This document shows positions 329-51,215 of a stretch of DNA of 64,000 bases, piece after piece (positions within the stretch are counted from its first letter, which is position 1; the number at the start of each line of letters is the position of its first letter). The DNA is from Prevotella melaninogenica (GTDB taxonomy: Bacteria > Bacteroidota > Bacteroidia > Bacteroidales > Bacteroidaceae): positions 1,776,501-1,840,500 of the forward strand of contig NZ_CP072348.1 in NCBI RefSeq assembly GCF_018127925.1, in the 5' to 3' direction. The position numbers and the translations under genes are program-made. The notes under the pieces are model-generated. The model searched no databases. It was not told the origin of the DNA and saw only the letters and a program-made list of their open reading frames with translations.

Positions 329-822
329 GGAGGATAAAGTAATCGATAAATGCAAATTGATACTATTTTATCCGTCTTTTACAAACAACTTATTCCTTTG
401 TTATTTGCTATTTGTAAACTCTTTTCATACAACTCAAAACCTATACATGCTCTTTAGGCTTCTTAAAGACGCCTAATTGACTTGCAAAAGGTGCCCTTTT
501 GAGGTCTTACTAACGCCCTTTTGAAGTCCAATTAAGCACCTTTTCTTGTACTACTTTATAACTGATTGATTCTCTGTTGGTTATAGACTTGCTTTTTAGA
601 TGTGATTTTATCCTAATTTATAGATGTTTTATTCGAAATTATGTAATGATTTTTTTCAAAATCTTATCTATATAGTTGAGGTGTTAAAATAAAAGGGTTT
701 TCTATGTCAGAAAGTGATAATAAAGTAGGTAGTATGATAGTCTTAGCTATAATTTTCATTAATGAGTAACTCCGGTTCTTCCGTTAAGGAACCACGAAAA
801 GCATCCACACATTTAACGGAAG
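329..822 (+). repeat. ~580-bp dispersed element, copy 1 (truncated at its left side)
   Basis: This stretch aligns along its length with copy 2 (from 836) and with the reverse complement of copy 3 (34245-34823). It ends in the shared terminus ACATTTAACGGAAG at about 809-822. Its core holds five units with an exact 22-bp period, anchored at G449, G471, G493 and G515 and at the CTTTT of 541. The left end lacks the CTTCCGTTAAATG terminus seen in the other copies, so I call it truncated. I see no convincing gene in 1-328. A 67-codon open frame on the minus strand at 91-294 is K/R-rich and has no recognisable family. Confidence 0.75.
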
Positions 823-835
823 AATCAATAAGGTT

Positions 836-1609
836 CTTCCGTTAAATGCGCAGATTGTTGATAGAATGAGATTAATTCACATAAACGGAATGAATCTCCC
901 CAATTAGATGGTTTTAGGCTGAGGGATAAATTACATAACAGATATAATTAGATGCGATATCTACCTGTCATCTATAAACAACGTATTCCTTCTTTAGCTG
1001 ATATTTGTAAACCATTTTCGTACGGTTCAAATCCAATACATGCTCTTTTGGCTTCTAAAAGACGCCTAATTGACTTGCAAAAGGTGCCCTTTAAGACCCT
1101 TACTAATGCCCTTTTGAAGTTCAATTAAGCATCTTTTACTTTACTACTTTATAACGAATTGATTTTCTTATGGTTACAAACCTGCTTTTTATATGTGTTT
1201 TTGCCGTTATTTATTGATGTTTTATTTGGAATTATGTAATGATTTTTCAAATCCTTATCTGCGGATTTTCGAAGTCTTAAATGAAATGGTTTTCTATGAA
1301 AGAGGATGATAATAGGATAGACACTTGACTGTCATAACTATGTTTTTGATTAATGAGTAACTTCGGTTTATCCGTTATAGCAATACGAAAAGTGTCCACA
1401 CATTTAACCCAAATCGGTCATTAGAGCACAATGTTTCAGGAATTCTTGTTTTTGTGTTGTTTCCTAACATCTTTTATTTTCTTGTCGGCACCTTGCCTGT
1501 CTTTGCAACTTGACGTAGCCCGCTACGCCTGCGTTACAAAGATAGGCAATCTGCTCGACAATAAAATAGAATCTGTTTAGGCTCTAATGAGCGATTTGGG
1601 TTTAACGGA
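836..1609 (+). repeat. ~580-bp dispersed element, copy 2, interrupted by a fold-back element
   Basis: The copy begins with CTTCCGTTAAATGCG at 836 and ends with CACATTTAACGG. The 193-bp fold-back element at 1408-1600 interrupts it next to that right end. With the insert and one copy of the TTTAA duplication removed, it is close to 580 bp and has inverted termini of the form CTTCCGTTAAATGYG. The 22-bp array inside has anchors at 1042, 1064, 1086 and 1108, and the CTTTT of 1134. No transposase is encoded, so it looks like a non-autonomous mobile element or a structured repeat. Confidence 0.75.
1408..1600. mobile_element. 193-bp fold-back (MITE-like) element, copy 1
   Basis: The ends are inverted repeats: CCCAAATCGGTCATTAGAGC on the left, and on the right its near-exact reverse complement ending GCGATTTGGG. 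Most of the two halves are also complementary, and the centre holds GTAGCCCGCTAC, so the whole element can fold into one long imperfect hairpin. It is flanked by TTTAA direct repeats (1403-1407 and 1601-1605) and interrupts a copy of the ~580-bp element. Both points support transposition. A second copy lies at 11485-11676. No protein is encoded, so a transposase must act in trans. The terminal CCCAA is shared with the IS copies in this window, but that link is only a guess. Confidence 0.8.
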
Positions 1610-1766
1610 AAAACTGGAAAATACGCTTAAGATAGTTCGGAATAGGGAGGAAGTATTCTGGTTAATATGGCTTGTTGGGGAATGTGAAAAGGTGCAAATT
1701 GTCACTTATGGATAGCATTTAGATGTAATTTATGTGTATTTTCTTGGCAAATCAACCTTTTTTGCT

Positions 1767-1775
1767 TACCTTTAC
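1767..1775 (+). promoter_or_regulatory. Probable fabI promoter (-7 region)
   Basis: TTACCTTTAC lies about 25-30 bp before the fabI start. It resembles the Bacteroidetes -7 box TAnnTTTG with one mismatch. A TTGG at about 1743 lies at a plausible -33 distance. Confidence 0.45.
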
Positions 1776-1798
1776 ACCAAATTTGAATAACGAACATT

Positions 1799-2656
1799 AT
1801 GAGTTACAACTTATTAAAAGGTAAAAGAGGTATTATTTTTGGAGCCCTCAACGAGATGTCTATCGCATGGAAAGTTGCTGAAAGAGCAGTTGAGGAAGGT
1901 GCAACAATCACTTTGTCAAATACTCCTATCGCAGTAAGAATGGGTACAGTAAATGCACTGTCAGAGAAGTTAAACTGCGAGGTTATTCCTGCTGATGCAA
2001 CTAACGTTGAGGACTTGGAGAACGTATTCAAGCGCTCAATGGAGGTTTTGGGTGGTAAGATTGACTTCGTTCTGCACTCTATCGGTATGTCACCAAACGT
2101 GCGTAAGCACCGTACATACGATGACTTGGACTATAAGATGCTTGATACAACACTTGATATCTCAGCTGTTTCATTCCACAAGATGATTCAGAGTGCTAAG
2201 AAACTTGATGCTATCAATGAGTATGGTTCAATCCTTGCACTCTCTTACGTAGCTGCTCAGCGTACCTTCTACGGTTACAATGATATGGCTGATGCTAAGG
2301 CATTGTTGGAGAGTATCGGTCGTAGCTTCGGTTATATTTATGGTCGTGAGAAGCACGTACGTATCAACACTATTTCTCAGTCACCTACAATGACAACTGC
2401 TGGTTCAGGTGTGAAGGGTATGGATAAGCTCTTCGACTTCGCTGACCGTATGTCTCCATTGGGCAATGCAAGTGCTGCTGAGTGTGCTGACTATTGTATC
2501 GTAATGTTCTCTGACCTCACCCGTAAGGTGACAATGCAGAACCTCTACCACGATGGTGGTTTCTCAAATGTGGGTATGAGTCTCCGTGCTATGGCTACAT
2601 ACGAGAAGGGTCTCGATGAGTATAAGGACGAGAACGGTAATATTATCTACGGATAA
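1799..2656 (+). CDS. fabI: Enoyl-[acyl-carrier-protein] reductase FabI
   Basis: This enzyme reduces the trans-2-enoyl-ACP double bond with NAD(P)H, the last step of each round of fatty-acid elongation, in the cytoplasm. The 285-aa product is a short-chain dehydrogenase of FabI type. It has the atypical dinucleotide-binding start G-A-L-N-E-M-S-I-A (residues 15-23) and the FabI catalytic pair Y150/Y160 with K167 in Y-x6-K spacing. FabI is the triclosan target family; nothing in the sequence bears on resistance. The gene stands alone, with an upstream promoter-like box and the next gene interrupted by an IS. A GC-rich REP-like hairpin begins directly after the stop codon. Identification is firm. 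Confidence 0.96.
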   Translation: MSYNLLKGKRGIIFGALNEMSIAWKVAERAVEEGATITLSNTPIAVRMGTVNALSEKLNCEVIPADATNVEDLENVFKRSMEVLGGKIDFVLHSIGMSPNVRKHRTYDDLDYKMLDTTLDISAVSFHKMIQSAKKLDAINEYGSILALSYVAAQRTFYGYNDMADAKALLESIGRSFGYIYGREKHVRINTISQSPTMTTAGSGVKGMDKLFDFADRMSPLGNASAAECADYCIVMFSDLTRKVTMQNLYHDGGFSNVGMSLRAMATYEKGLDEYKDENGNIIYG

Positions 2657-2717
2657 GTAAAGCCCCACCCCGACCCTCCCCGAAGGGGGAGGGAGGCAAA
2701 TAGGGGAGGGGTAGGAT
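2657..2717 (+). repeat. REP-like GC-rich hairpin after fabI
   Basis: GTAAAGCCCCACCCCGACC is followed by CCTCCCCGAAGGGGGAGG and a second G-rich stretch. It starts at the base after the fabI stop. The same sequence recurs, in the sense orientation relative to the gene, at the ends of the RNase H gene, argS, dgt and the fimbrillin-like gene. It can form a C/G-rich stem and may act as a transcript end or mRNA stabiliser. Confidence 0.75.
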
Positions 2718-2950
2718 AAAGGGGATTGTCTTTATAGATGTAATTCTCTACCACTATCTAATGTAACTCCTCTTTATGCGCTTGTTGAGGAAGGTGCTAA
2801 GCCCAAGTTTAACCGGCAAAATTATTTTTCATAAATTTTCGGGATGTTTTGTGTAGTATCAATTTGAAAAATGATTGATAATCAAGTGTAGAGTATTGTT
2901 GCGAGGAGTAAAATCTGATTTGTAGGACACAGTCATATCAAAATTATTTT

Positions 2951-2959: not shown

Positions 2960-2964
2960 CACTC

Positions 2965-8410: not shown

Positions 8411-8535
8411 TGATTAGTTTTGATTCAAAACTTATATCTCATACTTTATAATTTTATTGTTTGTCAGTTGTAATTATGTTTGCCCTTTTATGCAGTCTAA
8501 TAAACAATCTTGTGTAAGCTTTTTAGTAGTGTTTT

Positions 8536-8595
8536 GCGGTGGTGTTGATGCTCAGCACGAGTGGTGTTGTTGGTAAGCACCAATGGTGTTAAGCG
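8536..8595. repeat. 22-bp period array (GCACCAATGGTG type), three units
   Basis: GTGGTGTT or ATGGTGTT recurs with its last base at 8546, 8568 and 8590, which is exactly 22 bp each time. The third unit holds the palindrome CACCAATGGTG. The sequence type matches the arrays at 23862, 37126 and 41596. Confidence 0.75.
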
Positions 8596-8704
8596 CTAAT
8601 CGCCATGCAATATATGATGGGGGAGATATCAACTTGTTGTTAAAAAGAGTCATACTGTCAAAAAGTAATTAATGGTTATTCGATGTAGGGGCTTACTTTC
8701 TTAA

Positions 8705-10807
8705 CCCAAGTTTAATACCCACCTTCGCCTAATTGTTACTGTCACCGTACTTTCCTCATTTTTCTTATGGGCTCTGTGTCCTACAAATTTTATTCTTTTT
8801 GAATGGTGAGTGTTTTAAGTTCAACTTATCGTATATCTGTTTTGCTTGCTTCGAAGGACTACTACATTGGCGCATCTCGATGGTTTCACCTAATGGATTC
8901 TTCCCTTTTGTGGTGACGAGCTTTTGGGTACTCATACGTCGTACAATCTCGGTCCAGTAACAGGATTCTCCTTCTCGTTTTAATTGACAACGGATAGTGT
9001 TTACCACCCAGTAGGCTAATAAACCGAAGAAAAGGTGTGCGTCGCTTCGCTCATCTTTCTGATGATAGATTGGACGGAGGTTGAGATCATTCTTTAGTTG
9101 TCTGTTCGTACATTCTATCTCGCGAATGAGATTGTAGTATTCCCATGTCACACGCTCAGAAAGTGTCCTGACATTGCTGCGGAGGAAATAGACTCCATGA
9201 CCAGATTCCATTGCCGAGAGGTCTTTTATCTCCCAGTCTACACGCAGCATCTCCTTGGGCTTCTTCTCATTTTTTATGTAGCTTATCTGGTAGAACTTCG
9301 CTATAGAAGGGTACTTCTGTATGGCACGTCCTGTACGTTCAACAACCTTTTCATAGGTTTTTGTTCCACCTTTCTTGGAGATTCCTTCGTTTATCCTCTG
9401 CAGTTCCATCTCAAGACGCCCTCTCCAAACCCTGTTCATGGACGACTCTGTCATAGCTTTTGAAGGAGATGTTATTTCGAGATAATAATCCTTATCATCC
9501 TCTGTCTTAACCTCTTTCAGCGTTATCTTCTGCCGACGGGCATCCATTATCGTAACGCTCTTATTATCATCACTGAGCATATAGTCTTTCATTTTCGTAC
9601 GGGATACGCAGAGATAATTGTAACCCTTTTTCTTTATTAACTCCAAGTTCTCTTCCGTGGCAACACCTGCATCCATGACAACGAGCGTATCCTTTGTTCT
9701 TGATGGATTCCTCTTTGCCAGCGTATCAATCATATTGGGTAGAGACTTGGAATCTGCTGTATTACCCTCCAAGATAGAAGAATAACGTATAAAACCTTCT
9801 TTATTGATACATAATGCAAGTACAAGTAGCTTACAATCAGAGCGCTTTTCTTTTGAACGACCGAACTTGGCTTTATCGCTATTACGCTTGCTACCCTCGA
9901 AATAGAAGTTGGTTAAGTCGAAGAGCATCAACTTGTTGTCTATATTAAAGAGAGCGTCAGTAATGCTGCACAGATGATGCTCTAACTGTTCCTTTAGTTC
10001 ATATAATTTGTCAGTGATTTTATACAGAGAATTGATTCCTGGTGTCCAGCCAGGAACTCCACTGTAAAGTTCGCCAGCAGCCGAGTTATCGCGCAAATAA
10101 TAATAAGATGAACGTTCAGAGACAGCATATACCGTACGAACAATCAATGCTGACAAAGCCGTGTGTATTGCATTTCCGTCCACCCATTTTTGCGCAGAAA
10201 ACCCTCTAATTGTAGCTTGTCTATTGTCTGCTTGCAGAGCCACTCTGCACCAACATTCCTTGCGTCAGTATAGTTTGCCGTCTCAAGGTCAATATAGTTC
10301 TCATATTTTCTCAGCGACTTCTGCTCTTCCTTATTAAACCGATCGATTCCACCTTCTTTCTCCATACGGCTCCACCATTCGTCAGCCTTTGCCTGTTCAA
10401 TAGGAGTAAGACCGTCAAGGTATTCTTTGAAAAGCGAGGGTGTACTTCTGTTTTTGAAGCGTTCGGTAAGAGCGTATGCAATTTTTCGAACCTGTACAGC
10501 AGTAAGTGAAGGTTCGAACCCGATGTTCAAAAGAATTAGCGAATGTACATGACCCTGCACATCACGATATGACTCCTTGATGCGATAATAAGGAGCCATG
10601 TCCCCTGTGGCAGGGTTGAATCGTGTCTGTACATTTGCGTGCATGAGTGCAAAGTAACAAAATAATTTTGATATGACTGTGTCCTACAAATCAGATTTTA
10701 CTCCTCGTTACAATACCCTATACTTGATTATCAACCATTTATCAAATTGATACTACACAAAACATCCCGAAAATTTATGAAAAATAATTTTACCGGTTAA
10801 ACTTGGG
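8705..10807 (-). mobile_element. IS1634-like insertion sequence, copy 2 (2103 bp, frameshifted)
   Basis: The same CCCAAGTTTAA ends as copy 1 are present, in opposite orientation. The flanks carry TTAA at 8701-8704 and 10808-10811. The element is 1 bp shorter than copy 1, matching a single-base deletion in the transposase gene. The flanking duplications differ from those of copy 1, so each inserted on its own and the pair is not a composite transposon. Confidence 0.88.
8765..10644 (-). pseudogene. IS1634-family transposase, 1-nt deletion
   Basis: The first 150 or so codons (from 10644) match copy 1 until G-W-T-E, then the frame is lost at about 10172-10178. Copy 1 reads GGACGGAGAATGCGATAC there and this copy lacks one G of that run. 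The remainder continues in another frame to 8765, with only scattered substitutions relative to copy 1. It is probably inactive unless the frameshift is bypassed. Copy 1 could still act on its intact ends in trans. Confidence 0.88.
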
Positions 10808-10954
10808 TTAAGTTTAATACGATGATACATAGAGAATATATGATTTAAATTTTATTGGCTACAATGCTCACTTTTAGTTGTAAAGTCTTGTATTTATGTG
10901 TGTTGAGTTCTGTTTAAAAGTAGTTTATTTCTTGTTTATTTGCAATATTTGCGC

Positions 10955-10994: not shown

Positions 10995-11483
10995 ATGCGT
11001 AAAAGTATTCAGAAGTGGACTTATGCCCTTGTAGCCAGTGTATTTGCATTGGTAATGTGTTTTAGCCTTAGTGCTTGTGGTAGTGATGATGATAATGATG
11101 TAAATAATGGGGTAAGTCCTGTTCTTTACAGTGATTTTGGAGGTAGAATCGGTGTTAACTATCCATTGGGTATCTCGGGTAAAATGGTTGCTTTCTTTAT
11201 TCCTAAGAGTCAGGCTGGACAGATTGTTGACTTAACAAAGACCGGTGATTGGGTTGCTGGTGGTTCTGCAGTTGGTGGTCTATACAGCTATGATGATCAT
11301 CTTTTCCAGAAAGGAAGTTATGTTTATCTTCTAAAGACGGGTGCAAATGAGATAGAACTCCGTTATAAATATATTTGGAAAGAAGGTACAGCAACTCGTA
11401 CAATAGAGGGAAGCTATAAGAACGTAAAGATGACAACGCATCAAGGTGCGATTGATTGGGCACATAGGCAGGGCTTGTATTAA
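10995..11483 (+). CDS. Putative lipoprotein of unknown function
   Basis: The 162-aa product has a charged N-terminus, a hydrophobic stretch and the lipobox L-S-A-C near residue 28, followed by a run of acidic residues (G-S-D-D-D-N-D). It is probably anchored in the outer or inner membrane. The rest looks beta-rich and I do not recognise a family. The start at 10995 is preferred over upstream starts because a good -7 box lies at 10955. The stop codon overlaps the 5-bp target duplication of a fold-back element, so the element inserted exactly at the gene's end and may have altered the last codons. Confidence 0.75.
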   Translation: MRKSIQKWTYALVASVFALVMCFSLSACGSDDDNDVNNGVSPVLYSDFGGRIGVNYPLGISGKMVAFFIPKSQAGQIVDLTKTGDWVAGGSAVGGLYSYDDHLFQKGSYVYLLKTGANEIELRYKYIWKEGTATRTIEGSYKNVKMTTHQGAIDWAHRQGLY

Positions 11484-11484
11484 A

Positions 11485-11676
11485 CCCAAATCGGTTATTA
11501 GACCACAATATGTATAATTCTTAACTATGGTATTTTTTCCTAACATATTTTATTTTATTATCGGCATCTTGTCTGTCTTTGTACCTTGACGTAGCCCGCT
11601 ACGCCTGCGTTGCAAAGCCAAACAATCTGCTCGATAATAAAACAAAATATGTTTAGGCTCTAATGACCGATTTGGG
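11485..11676. mobile_element. 192-bp fold-back (MITE-like) element, copy 2
   Basis: The ends read CCCAAATCGGTTATTAGACC and, inverted, GCTCTAATGACCGATTTGGG. Direct TTAAA repeats flank it at 11480-11484 and 11677-11681. The inner arms and the central GTAGCCCGCTAC match copy 1 at 1408-1600. Together the copies show a 5-bp AT-rich target preference. Confidence 0.82.
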
Positions 11677-11710
11677 TTAAAGTCAAATCAGCTTTTCAAA
11701 AGAAAACAGT

Positions 11711-15309: not shown

Positions 15310-15470
15310 AGGATAAAGTCTCCTCAGTCCTCTTGATAAAGAGGTGTTACGTTTTTACAATGCGTGAGGACTAATTCATTGGGTTATGTTTTGAGTGGGT
15401 GTTATTGCTTTGTAGTCAGTTGGTTGTGAGCGTTCTTTATTGCAGAAAGCCTATTGTTGCGAATTATTTT

Positions 15471-15550
15471 CATGAAAAGAAGGATTTATTTACATGAAAA
15501 TAAATATTTCTTTTCACGATGAAAAATATTTCTTTTCATGAAAATAATTC
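15471..15550. repeat. 22-bp period array (TTTTCATGAAAA type), four units
   Basis: CATGAAAA or a near variant starts at 15471, 15493, 15515 and 15537, exactly 22 bp apart. Each unit has the palindrome TTTTCATGAAAA and a weaker AAATATTT palindrome about 11 bp away. It lies in the 266-bp gap between two minus-strand genes. Related arrays are at 23668 and 36842. Confidence 0.85.
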
Positions 15551-15575
15551 ACCGAAGTGAGTCTTTTTTGCCTGC

Positions 15576-23549: not shown

Positions 23550-23667
23550 TAAGCATCTTATCTTATATATTAATAATGTGGGCTTATTGAGTTGAAAGTG
23601 ACGATAATTCGCTTCGTGTTTTAGCGTCTTTCTAAGTTCAATAAGTACGTTATAACTAAATTATCTT

Positions 23668-23750
23668 CATGAGAAGGAATATTTCTTTTCATGAAGATAA
23701 TTCTTTTTTATCATGAAGAAGAATGTTTTTTATCATGAAGAAAAACCTTC
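23668..23750. repeat. 22-bp period array (TTTTCATGAAGA type), four units
   Basis: CATGA recurs at 23668, 23690, 23712 and 23734, exactly 22 bp apart. It resembles the arrays at 15471 and 36842 but with CATGAAGA. It lies in the 720-bp gap between the EnvC-like gene and the acyl-CoA ligase. A second array of another type follows at 23862. Confidence 0.85.
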
Positions 23751-23861
23751 TTCGGCAGCTGTCAGGTAAATCTTTTCCTTCTATTAGTTAGCTATTTGCC
23801 TCTTATTCCCCTTGTTATAATGGGTTTAATGCCCCTTTCTTCTCATCTTTAGCTGATGTGT

Positions 23862-23927
23862 TGATGCTTCGCACATATCGTGCTAATGCTTCGCACATAT
23901 TGTGCTGATGGTAAACACCAATGGTGC
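23862..23927. repeat. 22-bp period array (GCACATATTGTGC type), three units
   Basis: The three consecutive 22-bp units start at 23862, 23884 and 23906. The first two are almost identical (TGATGCTTCGCACATATCGTGC-like). The third carries CACCAATGGTGC, the motif of the arrays at 8536 and 37126. Confidence 0.85.
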
Positions 23928-24173
23928 GGAGTGCTAAACACATTGAAATATGTTATGTAAATGGACTCAACTAATTGATGAAAATTGCATAGAAGATATT
24001 ATTGTGGATTCTTATCGTAGACTTTTAGCTTTCTAATAGGTACTCATGTGGAATTCGTTTTGTTCTATAAAAGAAAATAATTGTCCTGTTCTTCTCTGTT
24101 TGGTAGATGAAAAGCAAAAGGGTAAAATTGCAATTTAATATCTAATTTATTTTTTGCTTTGCGGATAAATGTT

Positions 24174-31110: not shown

Positions 31111-31324
31111 TTTATTATCAAAGCTCTTTTATCGTTAATAACAGAAGTTTAATAATCGTCCCTTTTAGCTGCTTAAGAAAAGGGAGGCGATGAATATAAA
31201 GGAAGGCTATCAATGCAAAGATAGTCTTCCTACAGATTTATATTTGACATACAATCATTTTCCTTATACTTCTTCTTTACACGAAAGCGTATTTTGTTAT
31301 ATCTTTGTCCTAGTCCCGTTATTC

Positions 31325-31531
31325 TATCACCATGGTGATACACCTTTATCACCGTGGTGATAGACTATTATCTCCATGGTGATAGATAGCTATCTCCATG
31401 GTGATAGAATGACGGGAATAGGACTACAGTATGACGGGAATAGGTTTAAAGTGTAGCGGGACTAGGATTAAAATGTAACGGGAATAGGACTAAATCATAA
31501 CGGAACTAGGACTGAAATGTAACGGAATAGG
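31325..31531. repeat. 22-bp period array, ten units of two types
   Basis: Four units carry the palindrome TATCACCATGGTGATA (or close variants) starting at 31325, 31347, 31369 and 31391. Six more carry ACGGGAATAGG-like sequence, with the C of CGG at 31413, 31435, 31457, 31479, 31501 and 31523. Every step is exactly 22 bp and the two types join in phase. Weaker palindromes (TAGCTA) sit 11 bp from the main centres. It fills most of the 527-bp gap before murF. Confidence 0.9.
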
Positions 31532-31583
31532 AAAAAAGACAGCTAGTGGCATGATTTCTGACAATAAAAAAAGGCATTCAAGG

Positions 31584-31615
31584 TTTTGCATTGTCTTTCA
31601 TTTAGCTTACCTTTG
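31584..31615 (+). promoter_or_regulatory. murF promoter
   Basis: TTTG at 31585-31588, a 19-bp spacer and TACCTTTG at 31608-31615 give a full Bacteroidetes promoter. It rules out the in-frame ATG at 31551. Confidence 0.8.
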
Positions 31616-31637
31616 CACAAAGAATAAAGTAAACGCA

Positions 31638-32960
31638 ATGGATATACAGGAGATTTACAAGATTTACCAAGCGCACCCTGTTGTGACCACAGATAGCCGT
31701 AACTGTCCTGAAGGAAGTATTTTCGTGGCATTGAAGGGAGCATCATTCGATGGTAATAAGTTTGCAGAAGCTGCTTTAGAAAAGGGCTGTAGCTATGCGA
31801 TCATTGACGAAAAAGAATATGCAAAGGCAGGCGACGAGCGTTATATCCTCGTTGATGATGCCCTTGTTACATATAAGGAACTGGCACGTGAGCATCGTCG
31901 TCAGTTCTCAATCCCTGTGATTGGTATTACAGGAACAAACGGAAAGACGACAAGCAAAGAACTTATCTCTGCCGTTTTGGCTGAGAAGTTTAATGTACAT
32001 CATACCGAGGCGAATTATAATAACGACGTGGGTGTGCCTCGTACGTTGTTAGGTATTCGTCCAGAACATGAGATTGCGGTTATTGAGATGGGTGCTTCTC
32101 ACCCTGGTGACATTGAGAAGTTGGTTACATATGTAGAGCCAACTTGCGGTTTGATTACTAATGTTGGTCGTGCACATCTTCAGGGTTTTGGTAGTTTTGA
32201 GGGCGTAAAGAAGACCAAGGGTGAACTTTATGATTTCCTAAAAGCTCATGGTTGTTTACTGTTCCTCAACGAGAGCAATCCCGATTTGACGGAAATGGCA
32301 GAGCAGCGAGCGTTTGATCGTATCATAACTTACGGACAAGATGAAACCGCTGATGTGCAAGGTTATGTTGTTAGCTGTGCTCCATGTTTGAAGTTTGAGT
32401 GGCAGTCATCAAGCCTTAACACCCATCACCCATCACCCACCATCTACGAAGTGCAAACCCATCTCATTGGCTCTTACAACTTAGATAATATGCTGGCAGC
32501 CATTGCTATTGGTCTTCACTTTGGTGTTACGCCACAGCAAATCAACTATGCTCTGGAGAATTATGTGCCTCATAACAATCGTTCTCAGCTCACTGAGACA
32601 GCGCATAACAAGCTTATTGTGGATGCTTACAATGCCAATCCATCCAGTATGGCTGCTGCGATAGAGAACTTCCAACTGATGGAAGTAGAGAATAAGATGG
32701 CTATCCTCGGTGATATGCGTGAGCTTGGAGATGCGTCTGCAGAAGAACATCAGAAGGTTGTGGAATTGCTTAAGGCTACAGACATTCGTAATGTGTGGCT
32801 TGTTGGAGAGGAGTTTGGAAAGACACAAACCGATTTCCGCAAGTTTCGCGACATTGATGAGGTGAAAAAGGAGATAGCTCTTCATCGTCCAGAAGATCAT
32901 TATATCTTGATAAAAGGTAGTAATGGCATCAAGCTTTTTGAGCTTCCAGCCTTGCTCTAA
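31638..32960 (+). CDS. murF: UDP-N-acetylmuramoyl-tripeptide--D-alanyl-D-alanine ligase
   Basis: MurF adds D-Ala-D-Ala to the peptidoglycan precursor in the cytoplasm using ATP. The 440-aa product has the Mur-ligase P-loop G-I-T-G-T-N-G-K-T-T (about 96-105), E-M-G-A-S-H-P-G-D-I (about 151-160) and the C-terminal V-D-A-Y-N-A-N-P. The start at 31638 is set by the promoter at 31584-31615. A short insertion S-S-S-L-N-T-H-H-P-S-P-T-I (about residues 257-269, nt 32406-32447) encodes the AACACCCATCACCC form of the intergenic GGGTGTTGA-type repeat. The frame is retained, so the enzyme is probably active. Confidence 0.92.
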   Translation: MDIQEIYKIYQAHPVVTTDSRNCPEGSIFVALKGASFDGNKFAEAALEKGCSYAIIDEKEYAKAGDERYILVDDALVTYKELAREHRRQFSIPVIGITGTNGKTTSKELISAVLAEKFNVHHTEANYNNDVGVPRTLLGIRPEHEIAVIEMGASHPGDIEKLVTYVEPTCGLITNVGRAHLQGFGSFEGVKKTKGELYDFLKAHGCLLFLNESNPDLTEMAEQRAFDRIITYGQDETADVQGYVVSCAPCLKFEWQSSSLNTHHPSPTIYEVQTHLIGSYNLDNMLAAIAIGLHFGVTPQQINYALENYVPHNNRSQLTETAHNKLIVDAYNANPSSMAAAIENFQLMEVENKMAILGDMRELGDASAEEHQKVVELLKATDIRNVWLVGEEFGKTQTDFRKFRDIDEVKKEIALHRPEDHYILIKGSNGIKLFELPALL

Positions 32961-34177: not shown

Positions 34178-34244
34178 CGAAAAGGCTTTGAATAGTAAAG
34201 GAGTAAGAAGGCAAAAAAGTAAAAGGAGGGAAAGTTTTAATGTC

Positions 34245-34823
34245 CTTCCGTTAAATGTGTAGACGCTTTTCGTATTGCTTTAACGTAAGAGCCGAGGTTG
34301 CTCATTAAACAAAAATATGGCTAAGACAGTCAGCATTCTATCCTATTATCATCCTCTGATATTGAAAATCATTTCTTTTTGGACTTCGAAAATAGGTAGA
34401 CAGTGATTTGAAAAATTATTACATAATTCCAAAGAAAATGTCTATAAATAACGGCAAAACCACATACAAAAAGCAGGTTTGCAATTAACAGAGAATCAGA
34501 TAGTTATCAAGTGGTAAAATAAAAGGTGCTTAATTGGACTTTAAAAGGGCGTTAGTAAGGGTCTTAAAGGGCACCTTTTGCAAGCCAATTGGGCGTCTTT
34601 TAGAAGCCAAAAGAGCATGTGTTGGTTTTGAGTCGCACGAAAATAATTTACAAACTTCAACTGATAAGGGAATGCGTTGATAGTAGAAGACAGATAGACA
34701 TTGCAGCTAATTACGTTTATTATGTAGTTTATCCCCCTTTGTAAAACCATCTAATTAGAGGCAATCATATCCATGTATGCGGATGAATCTCATTCTATTA
34801 ACAATCTACGCATTTAACGGAAG
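34245..34823 (-). repeat. ~580-bp dispersed element, copy 3 (complete, 579 bp)
   Basis: It is bounded by CTTCCGTTAAATGTGTAGAC on the left and by an inverted CTACGCATTTAACGGAAG on the right, so it has terminal inverted repeats of about 17-19 bp. It aligns as the reverse complement of copies 1 and 2. The 22-bp array sits at about 34530-34620. Flanks share no obvious direct repeat. It takes up most of the 775-bp gap between dusB and the metal ATPase gene. Confidence 0.8.
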
Positions 34824-34895
34824 AACCTTTATTAAAACGATTATCTAAATTTAATTTACAGGCATCTTTGCAACCGAGTTGCAAAACATAATCTT

Positions 34896-36816: not shown

Positions 36817-36841
36817 AAAGGCGTTCTTCTCAATTTATTTT

Positions 36842-36920
36842 CATGAAAATAAATATTTTTCTTCATGAACGTAAATATTTATTTTCGTGAAAATAATTTC
36901 TTTTTTACATGAAAGTAATT
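36842..36920. repeat. 22-bp period array (TTTTCATGAAAA type), four units
   Basis: CATGA or CGTGA starts at 36842, 36864, 36886 and 36908, exactly 22 bp apart. AAATATTT palindromes alternate at about 11 bp. The first unit begins about 25 bp after the metal ATPase stop. Confidence 0.88.
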
Positions 36921-37125
36921 TGGTATCTGTCGTAAAGTAGCTACGCAGATGCCATTTTTAATAGTGTGAAAAGCATGTTTTGATAAAGTAATAGAGTGTT
37001 CTCTTTCGGCTTATCTGACATTCCGAGTGATACTACTATTGGTCTTTGTGATGCAAGCCTATGATTCCCTTTGAGCTATTGAGTTATTAATAAGGTTTCT
37101 TTTGCTTAGTGATTCGGTGTGACAT

Positions 37126-37213
37126 CGCTGTCCGCACTATTGGTGTTCAGCGTCCGCACCATTGGTGCTCATCATCCGCACCATTGGTGCTGAGCCTTCG
37201 CACGTTGATAAAA
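37126..37213. repeat. 22-bp period array (CCGCACCATTGGTGC type), three full units
   Basis: Units at 37126, 37148 and 37170 have the same form (CGTCCGCACCATTGGTGCTC-like) at exactly 22 bp. A decayed fourth unit ends at about 37213. The main palindrome is GCACCATTGGTGC. It follows the 36842 array in the same 515-bp gap. Confidence 0.88.
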
Positions 37214-41294: not shown

Positions 41295-41595
41295 GTATTT
41301 GTAATTATTACAGCCAATAGATAAAATCTATATGCTGATTAATAAAATCTATCAAGCTTATCACCAGTGCTGATTATCAACAAGTTGCACTCATTTATTT
41401 GGTAAATTAAAAGATTACCTTCAACTAAAAAATATATTAAACATATACCTATACAATGCAATACTGAATCGAAAACGCTCGTGTTGCCTTTGAAAAGCAA
41501 GATGAATAAGAAAAGAACAACTCTTACTTCATAACAAGTTGTTGTCAATAGAATCATATATAATAAGGTTGTTAACCTTTAATATGCTTGGTGTT

Positions 41596-41661
41596 CAGCC
41601 TCCGCACGCTTGGTGTTCAGCCTCCGCACCACATGTGCGGGGCGTTAACACACTTGGTGGG
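41596..41661. repeat. 22-bp period array (CCTCCGCAC type), between ahpC and oxyR
   Basis: Units start at 41596, 41618 and 41640, and the 12 bases before 41596 fit a preceding unit. The first two open with CAGCCTCCGCAC. The array belongs with those at 8536, 23862 and 37126 (CACCAATGGTG type). A GTTGGTTGTTGGTG low-complexity stretch follows. No gene lies in the 646-bp gap. Confidence 0.8.
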
Positions 41662-41849
41662 TGGTGGCTTGTTGGTTGTTGGTGATGGTTGTTAGGTGTT
41701 GAAGAAGACTGGTATGAAACTTATAAGGTGGTGAAAAATAATACTTATTTATAGTGATTGGAGGTGTATACACTCACTATAAAGGATGAAAAAGACGAGT
41801 ATAAAGCATAAAAACAGGATGATAAGACGGCTATTTGGCTTTTTTTATC

Positions 41850-43490: not shown

Positions 43491-43697
43491 ATGAGAAAGA
43501 AACAAGAAAAGAAGGATTATTCTGCACCACGTTGCATGATAATCCAAGTAAGCGAAACCACTTATTTGATGGACACGTCTTACCCCGGTCAGCACAACCC
43601 AGCCCAGTCAGGCGGAACCTTTGGTGATGCCAAGCAGGCTCCAAGCTGGATGTCTGAAAGCGAAGAAGCAACCGAGCATTCTTCATGGGAAGACTAA
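43491..43697 (+). CDS. Small hypothetical protein upstream of the fimbrillin-like gene
   Basis: The 68-aa frame reads M-R-K-K-Q-E-K-K-D-Y-S-A-P-R-C-M-I-I-Q-V and has an acidic C-terminus (W-M-S-E-S-E-E-A-T). Its stop at 43697 lies about 57 nt before the lipoprotein start, so co-transcription is likely. It has a plausible start after an A-rich leader. I do not recognise a family. Confidence 0.55.
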   Translation: MRKKQEKKDYSAPRCMIIQVSETTYLMDTSYPGQHNPAQSGGTFGDAKQAPSWMSESEEATEHSSWED

Positions 43698-43753
43698 CAG
43701 AGAGAGTTATTAACCAAGTAAAGAAAACAAAATCAAAAAAGAAGAAACAGACA

Positions 43754-45310
43754 ATGAAAAAGAAATTATTCAAGACCCGCCTGCTTTCATTCGCAGCTTT
43801 CTGCGGGCTCACATTAGCGTTTGCATCCTGTGCCAATGAAGACGTAGCGCAGAACCCAAACAACACAGATAACGACAAGAACCTGACAACCTTCACAGCA
43901 GGTGACCCAACGACACGCACTTCAATGGAAAGCGACGGCAAGTTCTTTTGGGAAGCAGGCGACAAGATTTGGGTAAAAGATGATAACGGCACATGGAATG
44001 CAAGTAGCAATTCGCCAACAAGCAAGACTGCTTACTTTAAGTTTAAAGTGCCAGGCACTTACACAGCCCACATGTCATACAAAGTTTATTACCCTGGTCA
44101 GAATGGTAATCAAGACCAAGTAACCATCTCTGCAAGCCAGAGTCAATCAGAGCCAAACACAACTACTCACTTTGGCACATCAGGTGACTGTGGTATGGCA
44201 ACAGCAACGCGCATAACAGGTGAGCGTAATTTTAACTTTACGCTCGATCACAAGGCCGCTTACTTGCTCTTCTTACCTCGTACAACCAATACTATCTTAC
44301 AGAATTGTTACTTGACTAAAGTAGAGATAAATTCAGATAACGACATTACCAGTACATATACCCTCGACCCAGTGACAGGCGAACTAACAGGCACTGGTAC
44401 AGGCAAACAGATTACAGTTTCAACAGGTGGTAGCGGAACATACGCTAACGGTTTCCCTTTAACCAACACTTCCACAAGTGCCGCTACAAATGGTGCTTAC
44501 GTTGTTATAAAGCCGGGCACCCATACACTCAAGATACGTTATTGGGTGAAGGACATTGTAACAAACGTGGAGGGAACTATAACCAAGACATTGTCCTCAG
44601 CTACCTACGACCAGAACAAGTATTATAATATCACTGCCAACCTTAATGTAAAGGATTACGATGGCGACCATTATTACATGTGGGATGCTCAGGAACAATA
44701 TTGGAAAGGTCACGAATGGAATCAGGGTGGCAGCCAGCCAACACTTAGTATTTGGTTTCCAGGTGGAACATCTTCCAGCGATTACCCCCAGAACAACAGT
44801 GACCCACGTTACTGGAACGAAAGTGATCTAGGTTACGGCATAAGCAACCCCGCTACTCACACACCATGTAAAGACCTTCCTAACGTAAACGAGATGACGT
44901 GGTACGCTGCTAAGGGTAATCCTCGTTGGGATGCAGACGAGTTATGGACAACTATGGGTCATTTATATAAAGGTGGTATGTGGTTTAAGAAGAAAGCAAA
45001 CATAAGCGGATACAACCCTAACACCGCAGTAGACGGAACCGATTGGCGAACAAATGACAATGGAAATAGCTGGTCCGTATCTCAGACTCTCCCTTCCGCA
45101 GCCGATGCAAACAATTACTTCTACCTGCCCGCCTTGGGTTCCTACAGCTCTGGTTATCTGAATAGCGTTGGCGACAACGGCAGCTATTGGTCGTCGAGTG
45201 CTAGATCGAAGAACAGCGGCGGCGCGAACGGCCTGAGCTTCGACAGTGGTTACGTCAGCGTGGGCCTCGGCAACCGCAGTGAGGGATTCAGGATCGACGG
45301 GTTCGAGTAG
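43754..45310 (+). CDS. Fimbrillin-like (FISUMP-type) lipoprotein with a variable-region-like C-terminus
   Basis: The 518-aa product begins with a lipoprotein signal (L-A-F-A-S-C at residue 26). Residues 40-300 resemble fimbrillin/Mfa-like adhesins of Bacteroidales. The C-terminal ~120 residues resemble the C-type-lectin-like ends of Bacteroidetes FISUMP proteins and of targets of diversity-generating retroelements: L-P-A-L-G ... G-S-Y-W-S-S-S ... G-L-S-F-D-S-G-Y-V ... N-R-S-E-G-F. The last ~42 codons (45184-45307) are GC-rich and full of NNC codons where such proteins often have Asn (AAC): AGC, GGC, GAC, TAC, CTC. It is likely a surface adhesin. The start at 43754 is preferred over 43685, which would hide the signal peptide. 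Confidence 0.78.
   Translation: MKKKLFKTRLLSFAAFCGLTLAFASCANEDVAQNPNNTDNDKNLTTFTAGDPTTRTSMESDGKFFWEAGDKIWVKDDNGTWNASSNSPTSKTAYFKFKVPGTYTAHMSYKVYYPGQNGNQDQVTISASQSQSEPNTTTHFGTSGDCGMATATRITGERNFNFTLDHKAAYLLFLPRTTNTILQNCYLTKVEINSDNDITSTYTLDPVTGELTGTGTGKQITVSTGGSGTYANGFPLTNTSTSAATNGAYVVIKPGTHTLKIRYWVKDIVTNVEGTITKTLSSATYDQNKYYNITANLNVKDYDGDHYYMWDAQEQYWKGHEWNQGGSQPTLSIWFPGGTSSSDYPQNNSDPRYWNESDLGYGISNPATHTPCKDLPNVNEMTWYAAKGNPRWDADELWTTMGHLYKGGMWFKKKANISGYNPNTAVDGTDWRTNDNGNSWSVSQTLPSAADANNYFYLPALGSYSSGYLNSVGDNGSYWSSSARSKNSGGANGLSFDSGYVSVGLGNRSEGFRIDGFE
45184..45310 (+). other. Putative diversified region (VR-like) of the lipoprotein gene
   Basis: This segment starts at TAT TGG TCG TCG and ends at the stop. 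Of the roughly 41 sense codons, over half end in C and most of these are NNC at positions where homologues have Asn or Ser. GC is far above that of the preceding 1.4 kb. No template repeat or reverse transcriptase was found in this window, so any retroelement must lie elsewhere. Confidence 0.5.
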
Positions 45311-45346: not shown

Positions 45347-45380
45347 AATGGGATAAAGGAGGATGAGAGATAGGAGAAAA

Positions 45381-45556
45381 TCTAACCCATTGGAAGTAAA
45401 TTTCTAACCTGTCAGAAATTTACGGGAAACGGGTTAGCGAGAAATTTCTAACGGGTCGGAAGAAAATTTCTCTACGGTGAGAAATTTACGTACCTACGGT
45501 TGGAAAGAAATTTTTCACAAAGGAAAATTTTCTTCTGACCGTAGAAAAATTTAAAG
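45381..45556. repeat. 22-bp period array (TCTAACGGGTCGGAAG type), eight units
   Basis: Eight consecutive units begin at 45381, 45403, 45425, 45447, 45469, 45491, 45513 and 45535. They share AAATT or TTTC edges with variable centres such as TAACCCATTGGAAG, TAACCTGTCAGAAA and TAACGGGTCGGAAG. Spacing is exactly 22 bp throughout. It fills much of the gap before the HU-like gene. Confidence 0.88.
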
Positions 45557-45796
45557 CCCTCCTTTGTCTCTGAAAATAGATGACTGGAAGTTACAATTTT
45601 CTATAAACGGAAATGCTATTATCTTGAGGACAAAGAAGGTTTCTAACCGGAAAAACAAAGAGAAAAACATTGACACAACAAACTGGATAAAACCTTATTC
45701 AGACGAGAACATGAAAAACGGAGAATAAACCATGGAACAAACCAAGGTGTAAATGCCGTAAAAACTTAAATATTTACTTTTAAAAACAAAACAATT

Positions 45797-46222
45797 ATGA
45801 AGATTAAACTCCAAAAGAAAAAGAATCCGCAGAAGCGGACGGAGGAAAAGTATTATGCTAATCCTGTAAATCTTGGTAAGAAGACCTTGCGAGACATTGC
45901 ACGCGACATTGCGGGGCGTTCTTCGCTCACACGTGGCGATATTGAGAACGTGCTGTCAAACTTTATAGACTGTTTGCCTCATTACCTCCGCGATGGCTTT
46001 AGCGTGCAATTAGGAGAATTTGGCACGATGCGCCTGACACTTTCAAGCGAGGGAGCTGCAACGGAAAAGGCCTTTAAGACCGAGACGATTAAGCCACGCG
46101 TAACGTTTACGCCAGGTGTAGAACTGAAGGCTGCGCTGCGCGAGAACTCGTATGAAACAGTGAAGGAGGAAGAGAAAAAGACGAAAGAAGGTTCTGGTGG
46201 TTCTCTGGGCCCATCGGTTTAA
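45797..46222 (+). CDS. HU-like DNA-binding protein
   Basis: The 141-aa protein resembles the HU-related DNA-binding family of Bacteroidales: L-R-D-I-A-R-D-I-A-G-R-S-S-L-T-R-G-D-I-E, then L-G-E-F-G-T-M-R-L-T-L-S-S-E-G-A in the beta arm region. The C-terminal tail is K/E- and then G/S-rich. These proteins bend DNA and compact the nucleoid. It lies between two 22-bp arrays (45381 and 46344), which is noteworthy but not proof of a link. Confidence 0.85.
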   Translation: MKIKLQKKKNPQKRTEEKYYANPVNLGKKTLRDIARDIAGRSSLTRGDIENVLSNFIDCLPHYLRDGFSVQLGEFGTMRLTLSSEGAATEKAFKTETIKPRVTFTPGVELKAALRENSYETVKEEEKKTKEGSGGSLGPSV

Positions 46223-46343
46223 GTAAGTCTTTTAAGCTCCTCTTCTAAAGTGAAAGTAAGAAGAGCGAGGAAGGCCTTAAGCTAGTTGCTGAAGCGTAAT
46301 GATTCGGAGGCTGTTAGCTAGGTTAAGGATATGGTCGAAAGAG

Positions 46344-46425
46344 TTCGCGAACAAATCGAAAATTGTTCGCGAACTTTTTTAAGATTCTTCGCGAACAAAA
46401 TGGAAATTCTTCGCGAACAATTTTT
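46344..46425. repeat. 22-bp period array (GTTCGCGAAC type), four units
   Basis: TTCGCGAAC recurs with the C at 46346, 46368, 46390 and 46412, exactly 22 bp apart. The centre is the perfect palindrome TTCGCGAA, extended to GTTCGCGAAC in two units. AAATT-like sequence lies between. It is in the 270-bp gap between the convergent HU-like and glpC genes. Confidence 0.9.
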
Positions 46426-46492
46426 TGTGTTTCTTTTGGAAGAGTAATCGTTGGGGGGGCTTACTTGTCTGGAAGTAATCAGTAGAATCTGC

Positions 46493-49004: not shown

Positions 49005-49120
49005 TGTCGATTGTCTTTGATTGTGATAGATTGTTTGAAATCTTTGGTCTTTATAGAGCCATTTATACGTCTATATGATTTAGACTGATAAGAACTTCTC
49101 TTTCTGTCCAATGTCTTTTA

Positions 49121-50719
49121 TCAGTTGCCCAGTCCTAACAAGCCCTGATAGATAGCTGCAGTGAGCTGTGCTTCGTCAAGTGTGCTACCCCAAGCAACGG
49201 GTTGCATACCTTTCCACCGTTCGTTGATGAAGTCGTGGAGATCGGTTAATGTTTTCTCTGCCTCATCTCCTGCATCACACATTACACCAGCAGCACGACA
49301 AGCACAGAGTTCTCCTTGACAGGTTCCCATGCCCACTCGGGTACGGCGGCGCAGGTTGAGGAGGTCGTGGACGTGCAACTTTTCCATTGCATATTTTACT
49401 TCACCGACACTCACTTCCTCACATTCGCAAACTAAGGAGCGGTCTTCTACGCTTTGAGTGGATATCTCTTGAACACGATAGCCTTGTCTACCTTTAGCCG
49501 CATTGTGTGCTGTTGAATACGTATGATGTTTGCTGTCTGTGTCTTTTCCTTCGCTTCCCGGAAGAGGGCGGTTAGCTGTTTGACAAACAGCTTTTATATC
49601 TAATTTCTTGCAAGCCAAGTCGGTTGCTATTTCAGCCATGAGTCGGTAGGTCATCATCTTACCACCTGTAATCGTGATAAGTCCTGCCAATCCATCTCGT
49701 TTCTCATGGTCTAAGCAGATGATTCCACGGCTGATACTGCGCCCTGATGGGTCATTATCGGCTGCAACAAGTGGTCTAACGCCAGCATAAGCACGTAGGA
49801 TACGAGTTGTCGCAAGGCTCGGAGCAAGTTTCTCTCCCTCCTTTATCAATATGTCTACCTCTTCTTGTGTAATCTTTAGGTCGTCAATTGTGTCATAAGC
49901 TACGCGGTCGCTGGTGGTTCCAATGACGCATACAGCATCGTCTGGAACGAGGATATCAGCGTTTGCAGGCTTACGGCAACGATTGATAACCATGTTGTTA
50001 ACGCGATGACCGAAGATGAGAAGCGTACCTTTCGCAGGAAACATATTAACCTTGATACCTGCCATCTTGACAATGTCATGTCCCCAAATGCCAGCTGCAT
50101 TGATAACGATACGACTGTGAACTTCGCTTTCTTCGCCGGTATGATTATTGCGGAGGCGAACGCCTTCCACACGACCATTGCTTAAAACGAGTCCTACCAC
50201 CTGCTGATAGGTTAGAATATCAGCTCCATGACGACGAGCATCAAGGACATTAGCCGTCGTAAGATGGAAGGGATCAATGGAAGCATCTGGCACTCGCACA
50301 GCGCCAATCAAGTCGGGATTGACTGATGGCTCTATGCGACGCGCTTCTTCAGGTGAAATAATGTTAGCACTTATGCCTGCTTCTTGGCAGGACTCTACGA
50401 ATGTTTTCTGGTATTGTATGTCGTCTTCTGGCAGCGTAATAAACAGTCCATCAGTTGCTTCTATGCAATGATGAGCAATCCGACGGAGTATCATATTCTC
50501 TTTGATGCACTCTGAAGCTGACTCTGGGTCGGTCACTGCATAGCGTGCTCCGCTGTGGAGTAAGCCATGATTGCGACCTGTAGCACCATTGCTGAAGTCA
50601 TATTTCTCTACAAGAAGCACACGCAGCCCACGCATAGCACAGTCGCGTGCAGTGCCTGCGCCTGTAACACCTCCTCCGATGATAATCACATCGTAATCCT
50701 TGTTTAATACTCTGCTCAT
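49121..50719 (-). CDS. glpA: Anaerobic glycerol-3-phosphate dehydrogenase subunit A
   Basis: GlpA is the catalytic flavoprotein that oxidises sn-glycerol 3-phosphate to dihydroxyacetone phosphate without oxygen. The 532-aa product has I-I-I-G-G-G-V-T-G-A-G (about 12-22), the DAO-fold R-N-H-G-L-L-H-S-G-A-R-Y and a C-terminal BFD-type 2Fe-2S domain with C-E-C (about 425) and G-T-C-Q-G-E-L-C. The promoter box lies about 110 bp upstream. A glycerol regulator (GlpR) or glpF/glpK was not found nearby. Confidence 0.95.
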   Translation of the reverse strand: MSRVLNKDYDVIIIGGGVTGAGTARDCAMRGLRVLLVEKYDFSNGATGRNHGLLHSGARYAVTDPESASECIKENMILRRIAHHCIEATDGLFITLPEDDIQYQKTFVESCQEAGISANIISPEEARRIEPSVNPDLIGAVRVPDASIDPFHLTTANVLDARRHGADILTYQQVVGLVLSNGRVEGVRLRNNHTGEESEVHSRIVINAAGIWGHDIVKMAGIKVNMFPAKGTLLIFGHRVNNMVINRCRKPANADILVPDDAVCVIGTTSDRVAYDTIDDLKITQEEVDILIKEGEKLAPSLATTRILRAYAGVRPLVAADNDPSGRSISRGIICLDHEKRDGLAGLITITGGKMMTYRLMAEIATDLACKKLDIKAVCQTANRPLPGSEGKDTDSKHHTYSTAHNAAKGRQGYRVQEISTQSVEDRSLVCECEEVSVGEVKYAMEKLHVHDLLNLRRRTRVGMGTCQGELCACRAAGVMCDAGDEAEKTLTDLHDFINERWKGMQPVAWGSTLDEAQLTAAIYQGLLGLGN

Positions 50720-50825
50720 TGTATAGGTAGTTCTAATCGGTCAAAAGTTATTTGCGAAGTTTCGTAACGAAAGTTTGGTTAAGTGTGCAAGCTGTCGTTC
50801 AAAATCTTTTGTATTTCATTCCGCA

Positions 50826-50834
50826 GCAAAGTTA
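50826..50834 (-). promoter_or_regulatory. glpABC promoter (-7 box)
   Basis: The minus strand reads TAACTTTGC, about 107 bp before the glpA ATG. No operator was identified. Confidence 0.6.
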
Positions 50835-50994
50835 TATAAAATAGATGAAAGTTCCAAAAAGTCTTAACAACTTTTATATCTTTTATTTCGTTTGGAAAGA
50901 TAATCGCTTTCGTTTTATTATCTTTTAGTTTCTTTGTTATGATGTTTTTGCTAAAGCTAAACACTCTTTTCTTCTGATTAAGTTTGTAGATAAT

Positions 50995-51215
50995 GTTTTG
51001 AAAAATCATTACATAATTTCGTGTAAAACATCTATAAGTAAGGATAAAAACACTTGTAAAAAGTGGGTTTGTAACCAACAGGGAATCAGTTAGTTATAAA
51101 GTAGTAAAAGAAAAGGTGCTTAATAAGACTTCAAAAGGGCGTTAGTTGGACTTCAAAAGGGCACCTTTTGCAAGCCTATCGGGCGTCTTTTAGAAGCCAA
51201 AAGAGCATGTATTCA
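50995..51215 (-). repeat. ~580-bp dispersed element, copy 4 (partial)
   Basis: The sequence from AAAATCATTACATAATTTCG to AAGCCAAAAGAGCATGT aligns as the reverse complement of copies 1 and 2 and in the same orientation as copy 3. The 22-bp anchors are at 51140, 51162, 51184 and 51206. Both outer parts of the element are missing or diverged. A 9-bp repeat AATTAGCCT-like block follows at 51252-51305. Confidence 0.72.

Follow-up and report, generated by a model that had tools for sequence, protein, structure and literature searches.

Intergenic arrays with a 22-bp pitch in Prevotella melaninogenica as predicted docking strips for HU-HIG DNA-binding proteins

Background

Tandem repeats of constant size and variable sequence, 20–23 nt long, have been described in many bacterial groups and are suspected of binding a polymerising protein (Subirana and Messeguer, PMC8161180). 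The subject here is a set of intergenic arrays that repeat every 22 bp in a 64,000-nucleotide stretch of the Prevotella melaninogenica genome (the window; C2:1776501–1840500 of genome G000, which is 3.36 Mb in two contigs). According to the available passages of PMC8161180, its satellites share several traits with these arrays: they are non-coding, of a fixed 20–23 nt, clade-specific and suspected of protein binding, with several unrelated families per species. The first-pass annotation of the window knew of no described family with this design, which is wrong for the phenomenon, given the repeats in that paper. Its available passages hold no partner protein, promoter position or selection test – the present analysis offers a candidate protein family, constraint, and matching arrays at different loci. 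Its criterion is at least four repeats; family A below usually has four units, while many of the arrays here have fewer and family B mostly has three. Such repeats, of 22/44 or 52 nt, are reportedly also the subject of a 2020 paper in the Journal of Bacteriology.

The reading proposed here, at a probability of about 0.7, is that the arrays, some of them operators and others distal, serve as docking strips for proteins that bind DNA, chiefly those of the HU-HIG family (PF18291). Burroughs et al. are said to have predicted in 2017 that HU-HIG proteins act in partition or against invasive DNA, and to our knowledge no array or operator is known for them. The genes linked to arrays here are scored members of the family, some with a conserved C-terminal extension.

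In the same order as Prevotella, Porphyromonas gingivalis carries BrickBuilt, an intergenic tandem repeat of similar unit length (PMC4596501, as far as its available passages go). Its 23-nt unit lies within a leader and a tail with terminal inverted repeats, and family D below, a 22-bp core inside a dispersed element, resembles it; the flanks of 16 family A arrays, compared by eye, are unrelated to each other and show no leader or tail. The sites matS, SBS, NBS and parS are dispersed palindromes of chromosome domains. The arrays are like them in being dispersed palindromes biased to one chromosome region, and unlike them in having four dyads at fixed pitch per site, a species-variable sequence and a moderate position bias. 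Hairpins of the repetitive extragenic palindrome and bacterial interspersed mosaic element (REP/BIME) type, with compensatory change, are not matched by family A, which has no significant covariation. An array of clustered regularly interspaced short palindromic repeats (CRISPR) is not matched either, as whole 22-bp units are repeated and diverged and there are no unique spacers.

No paper on Prevotella 22-bp tandem repeats or on HU-HIG was found in an open-licence library, though such papers may exist elsewhere, and joining constant-length repeats to HU-HIG proteins, with constraint and matching local and distal arrays, appears to be new. The literature available, in part, gives such repeats neither function nor partner, and HU-HIG is a large Bacteroidetes protein family with no target known to us; the analysis pairs the two. 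If the pairing is true, a protein family as a whole would keep its operator spacing even as the sequence it recognises drifts, and the genomes would hold candidate orthogonal protein–site pairs.

Results and Discussion

A 22-bp period in intergenic DNA

The window was compared with itself at lags 4–60, with a threshold of 17 matches in 22, over 12,372 intergenic and 47,957 coding positions. At lag 22, 270 intergenic positions and no coding positions reached the threshold. Lag 44, a multiple of 22, was the second intergenic lag with 147 positions, and every other lag had at most 59. The excess recurred when 464 kb of G000 were sampled (lags 10–60, coding counts left out, and a masked N stretch, L020:1–2506, excluded afterwards): lag 22 had an intergenic count of 1015 and lag 44 one of 563, with no other lag above 266. 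Counted as arrays, without microsatellites or N, 568 kb of G000 held 62 at lag 22, 37 at lag 44 and 13 at lag 21. Lag-22 arrays were also found in the sister species G132 (26 in 216 kb) and G146 (30 in 201 kb) and in the further relatives G124 (7 in 108 kb) and G003, Prevotella vespertina (5 in 54 kb); there were none in 20-kb samples of G016 and G010.

The period, the places and the intergenic position of the arrays, as first observed in the window, are confirmed. Units of 22 bp are present at all ten coordinates first listed, the array at 45381 being irregular. The earlier statement that all arrays are intergenic is nearly right – 3 of 96 family A or B arrays overlap a called open reading frame (ORF). 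Many other periods, which would have spoken for chance slippage, were not found, but 23 bp occurs in two HU-HIG subgroups and 21 bp in 3 of 36 related loci. The weaker second dyad about 11 bp off, first noted in several arrays, follows, by reasoning, from repeating any palindrome every 22 bp.

The unit was first thought to differ at each locus, and this is not so. When 170 lag-22 arrays, found at 16/22 in 1.21 Mb of G000, were clustered by single linkage (by which a few members may be stray), 157 fell into eight sequence clusters and 13 were singletons. The largest were B (GCACN5GTGC, 54 arrays), D (the core of an element of about 580 bp, 46) and A (TTTTCATGAAAA, 35), followed by C (GTTCGCGAAC, 8), E (near TTTCTAACCGGTTAGAAA, 7) and three clusters of 2–3. 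A fixed repeat length is therefore combined with several different sequence families in one genome. The arrays of the window are:

444–544, no strand: family D, 22-bp core of the dispersed element of about 580 bp (more cores near 1037–1137, 34515–34625 and 51103–51208)
8533–8600, no strand: family B (GCACN5GTGC)
15459–15552, no strand: family A, 4 units near TTTTCRYGAAAA, orthologous in G132 and G146
23656–23749, no strand: family A, 4 units, exactly one 22-bp unit missing in G132
23850–23935, no strand: family B, 3 full units
31325–31408, no strand: family F, 4 units TATCACCATGGTGATA, after a TAnnTTTG match
31412–31532, plus strand: second array (G), 5–6 units of ACGGGAATAGGACTAAA, adjoining F and upstream of a Mur ligase gene (31551–32960)
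36830–36923, no strand: family A, 4 units
37121–37207, no strand: family B, 3 full units, exactly one 22-bp unit missing in G146
41575–41665, no strand: family B
45375–45560, plus strand: family E, irregular 22-bp units with a palindrome near TTTCTAACCGGTTAGAAA, upstream of an HU-HIG gene
46338–46428, plus strand: family C, 4 units of GTTCGCGAAC, downstream of the same HU-HIG gene

Of 34 sample arrays of family A, 30 have four units; in family B, 45 of 62 have three and 17 of 62 have two. In the whole genome there are about 50 family A loci (in the list of 50, two long arrays are counted twice and three weak matches are left out) and at least 102 family B loci, taken from the best 150 of 866 candidates. 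Family A is limited to a clade. An exact two-unit pattern, looked for in 150 genomes of the genus, occurred at least 21 times in G000, G132 and G146 only, and singly in five others; the family A model had matches in G124 and, in altered form, in G017, while in eight more genomes it had either no match or a single weak, partial one.

HU-HIG genes beside the arrays

Families E and C flank a gene of the window that encodes an HU-HIG protein:

45797–46222, plus strand: HU-HIG (PF18291) DNA-binding protein gene, 141 amino acids (Pfam E 2.9e-26; NCBIfam HU_rel over its cut-off)

The PF18291 score of this protein (P0001) is 92.4 bits, with a cut-off of 26.2. Another gene at C2:1662253, which scores 89.2 bits and encodes 198 amino acids, represents a type of HU-HIG with a conserved C-terminal segment, here named HU-winged-helix; the segment has the look of a winged helix by eye only, and no helix-turn-helix family is over its cut-off. 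There are 65 PF18291 matches in G000, and 6 to 30 in seven relatives searched. Close relatives have far fewer than G000 – 9 in G132 and 6 in G146. At least three of the 65 (91, 100 and 461 amino acids) look like ordinary or other HU proteins, and HU-HIG lengths of 385 and 374 amino acids are a product of stretch ends. The frames of 100 and 461 amino acids were left out of what follows, which covers 63 loci, three of them only in part.

A lag-22 array lies within 500 bp of the HU-HIG gene at 47 of the 63 loci, upstream at 37 and downstream at 18. Within 250 bp upstream, 31 of the 63 loci had an array, compared to 51 of 720 other genes (p = 1e-16, a value that is too small because many of the genes are recent paralogues and not independent). 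In the 420 bp upstream of HU-HIG genes, at 17/22, lag 22 was found at 29 of 63 loci, lag 23 at 11 of 63 and any other lag at most once; controls for these loci and for the 40 loci of relatives taken up below gave 66/759 and 7/138.

Each group of HU-HIG genes has its own array at its own distance. Many of the 28 paralogues in HU cluster 1 have array E or J upstream and C downstream. All 11 members of cluster 2 have an array upstream, at 75–122 bp, and 6 of 8 in cluster 4 have a C array downstream, at 141–150 bp. In cluster 3 (9 of 9) and cluster 5 (2 of 2) the upstream arrays have a 23-bp period. The arrays were first described as having no fixed relation to gene direction, and this fails for the HU-linked arrays, which keep group-specific distances upstream or, for family C, downstream.

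Local and distal arrays in relatives

Of the 71 known PF18291 loci in relatives, 40 were taken in. An array was within 500 bp at 25 of them (15/20 in G003, 4/6 in G124, 3/7 in G017, 1/3 in G016, 1/2 in G010 and 1/2 in G146), and 17 of the 40 had lag 22 within 420 bp upstream.

Relatives of the HU-winged-helix protein were found at 36 loci in 22 organisms; eight of these loci are in genomes already used and seven were already in the set of 40. In 330 bp upstream, which was available for 35 loci (one had too little upstream DNA), lag 22 was present in 23 (19 of 28 without the seven overlapping loci), lag 21 in 4, lag 23 in 2 and lag 17 in 1. The control regions had no lag 22 – 0/36 inside the gene, 0/36 downstream, and 0/34 and 0/36 in two far regions. 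At 16/22, the best lag was 22 at 25 of the 36 loci, 21 at 3, 23 at 1 and 17 at 1 (H. oralis). The remaining six, with none, were P. falsenii b, P. vespertina c, two A. tannerae loci, a Phocaeicola metagenome-assembled genome and Bacteroidales SW299. The array sequences range widely, from TTTTCATGAAAA to CCCAACGGGTTGGG, and the pitch is constant. A match to TAnnTTTG, the usual Bacteroidetes promoter element, was present in 32 of 36 upstream regions, and the array was placed after it by eye.

Where the array before the HU-winged-helix gene differs between species, the distal arrays sampled differ in the same way. For both G000 and G132 the local array is TTCRYGAA, and distal units, gathered with such a core, are alike in 50 of 58 (G000) and 22 of 23 (G132); in G000 the half-sites are TC..GA both in the operator and in those 50 distal units. 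In G017 the array before the gene is TACRYGTA, with AC..GT half-sites that recur in all 60 distal units read, even though the model that located these arrays was made from the other type. The G017 sample is 15 of about 36 arrays, and four units were the best fit in 15/15. G124 has two HU-winged-helix genes, one per type, and four distal arrays, two per type. These matching differences would be explained by one trans-acting reader per type.

One place in the window could be what is left of an HU locus, since the core of family F, ACCATGGT, is also the core of the array before an HU-winged-helix gene in P. vespertina. In this place, at 31319–31532, arrays F and G come after a TATATCTTTG stretch and ahead of the Mur ligase gene.

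Proposed reading and points against it

In the proposed reading, the array unit is a dyad that would be read by one protein dimer. As 22 bp is about two helical turns, successive dimers would sit nearly on one face and could bind cooperatively, with four a common number. The array before the HU-winged-helix gene, after its TAnnTTTG box, would be an autoregulatory operator. In some lineages the array would have spread to tens of intergenic sites (about 50 for family A here, denser towards the origin of the large chromosome), and these distal sites may organise the nucleoid or tune neighbouring genes. The pitch would be set by the protein subfamily (22 bp, with 23 or 21 in some groups) and the recognised sequence would diversify among paralogues and species, which would explain a fixed period with a changing sequence. 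The first-pass annotation had guessed at one DNA-binding protein family with a 22-bp pitch, and this is supported by HU-HIG genes beside arrays in several species and for several array families, but families B and D are without a known partner.

A number of results weigh against the proposed reading. No HU-HIG partner was found for family B, the commonest, or for family D. Ordinary HU proteins are picked up by the PF18291 model as well, with matches in 9 of 14 control genomes. For 213 of 720 ordinary genes, an array lies no more than 500 bp away, upstream or downstream. Of the 47 HU-HIG loci with an array, at least three owe it to low-complexity DNA or to family D, and 16 of the 63 have no lag-22 array within 500 bp, though 11 of these 16 (clusters 3 and 5) have 23-bp arrays. 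Several different palindromes occur among close paralogues of cluster 3, which could mean that recognition is in part structural or that swaps are frequent. Family C has no promoter position, since it lies on the downstream side of its genes. In family A, the rate of change was not significantly different between conserved and tolerant positions (7/470 vs 13/470, p = 0.26). The compared G000 arrays were gathered with the TTTTCATGAAAA core, so that their agreement with the operator is partly built in; those of G017 were not.

The exception is G146. It keeps family A arrays at about 46 loci (92 model matches, both strands counted), with the G000 type in 28 of 32 distal units, and the arrays show no decay, with 13 of 564 sites different from those of G000 (for G132, 22 of 635). 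Yet the HU-winged-helix gene is not among its six PF18291 matches, and tblastn on stretches round the syntenic place found none. A recent loss, an assembly gap or a different reader may account for this.

Alternatively, the arrays may be read by other proteins, as operators or architectural sites, with HU-HIG genes adjoining them only through duplicated cassettes of gene and array. The 28 paralogues of cluster 1, many with array E or J upstream and C downstream, look like a copied cassette, and the lack of partners found for B and D and the unlinked arrays of G146 also speak for this explanation. This explanation is nonetheless unlikely, because the link recurs in diverged HU subgroups, because the HU-winged-helix type has it in most of the 22 organisms, whose array sequences are unrelated, and because local and sampled distal half-sites change together between species.

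Constraint and array turnover

Family A and family B arrays are under constraint between sister species. In comparison with orthologues, 31 of 1106 family A array sites were changed and 175 of 2877 flank sites (p = 1e-5); for family B these were 34 of 662 and 197 of 2397 (p = 0.008). Rows with a flank identity of 0.85 or less are excluded from these sums and included in the position classes of family B. In that family, changes were seen at 1 of 219 positions of the CAC/GTG core, 18 of 183 in the middle five bases and 42 of 448 in the linker. The difference between the core and the middle five bases (p = 5e-6) is about twentyfold in family B. The compared arrays were picked by their G000 core, so that changes on that branch are missed; this can explain a factor of about two, but not one of twenty.

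In a 190-kb block, 7 of 8 family A arrays of G000 were found in at least one sister species. At one locus, G000 has arrays of families F and G and both sister species have a B array. A stretch of about 240 bp at C2:1703675, including an A array, is missing from both; transposition with target duplication was considered for it and rejected, as the borders of the stretch do not match the array and no duplication is seen.

Neutral or selfish minisatellites, or dispersed repeats like miniature inverted-repeat transposable elements (MITEs), might have a period that comes from how arrays are made and not from a bound protein. Families A, B and D are dispersed, A in unrelated flanks; unit number often shifts by exactly 22 bp between sister species, though other length differences occur too; and BrickBuilt, according to the available passages of PMC4596501, is a 23-nt minisatellite within a MITE. 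Such an origin is quite improbable, since the arrays change more slowly than their flanks and the B core is almost frozen, and since the link to HU-HIG genes is not expected of neutral or selfish repeats. Local slippage is rejected as the origin, as units within an array are as unlike each other as units of different loci (5.46 and 5.32 mismatches per 22, 14 arrays). The identity of units by their position in the array was weak (0.63, vs 0.08 ± 0.12 in shuffles, 14 arrays).

The element of about 580 bp that contains family D (near 449, 1042, 34240–34830 and 51140) is MITE-like, with a core of 22-bp-periodic inverted AAAAG/CTTTT half-sites. It is repeated in G000, and there are dozens of copies in G132, G146 and G124. 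The first-pass annotation gave its core a 22-bp period at four places, of which three reach 15/22 at lag 22 and the fourth, at 1042, does not.

Dyad symmetry

The profile of family A, from 56 units, is symmetric: a fixed C and G stand round a purine–pyrimidine pair, tolerant positions are paired about the dyad, and the outer contacts are AT-rich. In 14 arrays, half-site complementarity was not significantly above shuffles at any of seven dyads – it fell below them at five dyads, and at the other two it was a little higher but was reached by 224 and 52 of 500 shuffles – and it was below shuffles about the axis of the whole array. Given a symmetric profile without significant covariation, family A fits a site for a dimer on double-stranded DNA better than an RNA hairpin. 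Selection for an RNA hairpin or a cruciform was rejected for family A on these data, which show no sign of compensatory change.

That the arrays function as RNA, as tandem hairpins, terminators or small RNAs, is highly improbable for the same reason, which comes from family A, even though palindromic units are able to fold, arrays in co-directional gaps are closer to the end of the upstream gene (14 of 19 for A, 21 of 26 for B), and 52-nt satellites are transcribed in Bacillus coagulans by the available passages of PMC8625621. Distal arrays were also considered as classical promoter operators and rejected, as their orientation classes are near background (31 A, 53 B) and they lie closer to the 3' end of the upstream gene.

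Chromosome distribution

Family A is biased to the large chromosome, with 43 of 50 loci (57% expected by length, p = 2e-5), and the bias is repeated in G132, with 42 of 49. Among the loci listed for family B, 73 of 102 are on the large chromosome (p = 0.003), and the difference between A and B is not significant (p = 0.067). On the large chromosome, the median distance to the origin inferred from skew (at about 1.5–1.6 Mb) is about 240 kb for A and about 424 kb for B (p = 0.012). The dnaA gene is on the other chromosome. Strict restriction of family A to an origin or a chromosome was not supported, as the bias is only moderate; the distribution suggests a possible role in chromosome organisation. 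On the smaller chromosome, five of the seven G000 family A loci are within about 160 kb (C1:809562–967025), and G132 has a similar cluster of five at C2:844136–953668.

A broader reading would make the 22-nt satellites of Bacteroidetes the footprint of an HU-HIG superstructure, in which each paralogue polymerises on its own strip of four dyads with a pitch fixed by the protein and a free sequence. The amplified genes, many just after a gene for a hypervariable surface protein and beside their own strip, would be a self-addressed system controlling or insulating surface genes, and one member, the reader of family A, would be an origin-side organiser of the chromosome. This is a doubtful extension, the more so since part of the chromosome bias of A is also found in B.

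Variable surface genes and other elements nearby

The gene before the HU-HIG gene of the window is:

43685–45310, plus strand: no Pfam family; C-terminus resembling a retroelement-diversified region

An ORF of at least 80 amino acids is upstream at 60 of the G000 HU-HIG loci, and in 39 of the 60 a W[SA]SS motif lies close to an end that resembles GFRVGGFE. In the 23 that are equal in length, variable codons have hypervariable first and second bases and C as the third, which is the signature of variable regions of diversity-generating retroelements. A crude pattern search of the stretches examined found no reverse transcriptase or template repeat for these genes, and a pattern scan of genome contigs, from which G000 itself was possibly left out, had 0 matches.

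Two further elements of the window appear to be mobile. A dispersed element of about 200 bp lies at about 11480–11681; the orthologous places in G132 and G146 look empty and the flank matches overlap shortly, which looks like the outcome of insertion with target duplication. A DDE transposase gene (8765–10243, minus strand) lies in a segment of about 2.1 kb (about 8700–10815). This segment matches G132 at 96–97% in 14 near-full places and one partial one, suggesting an insertion sequence that was recently active in G132.

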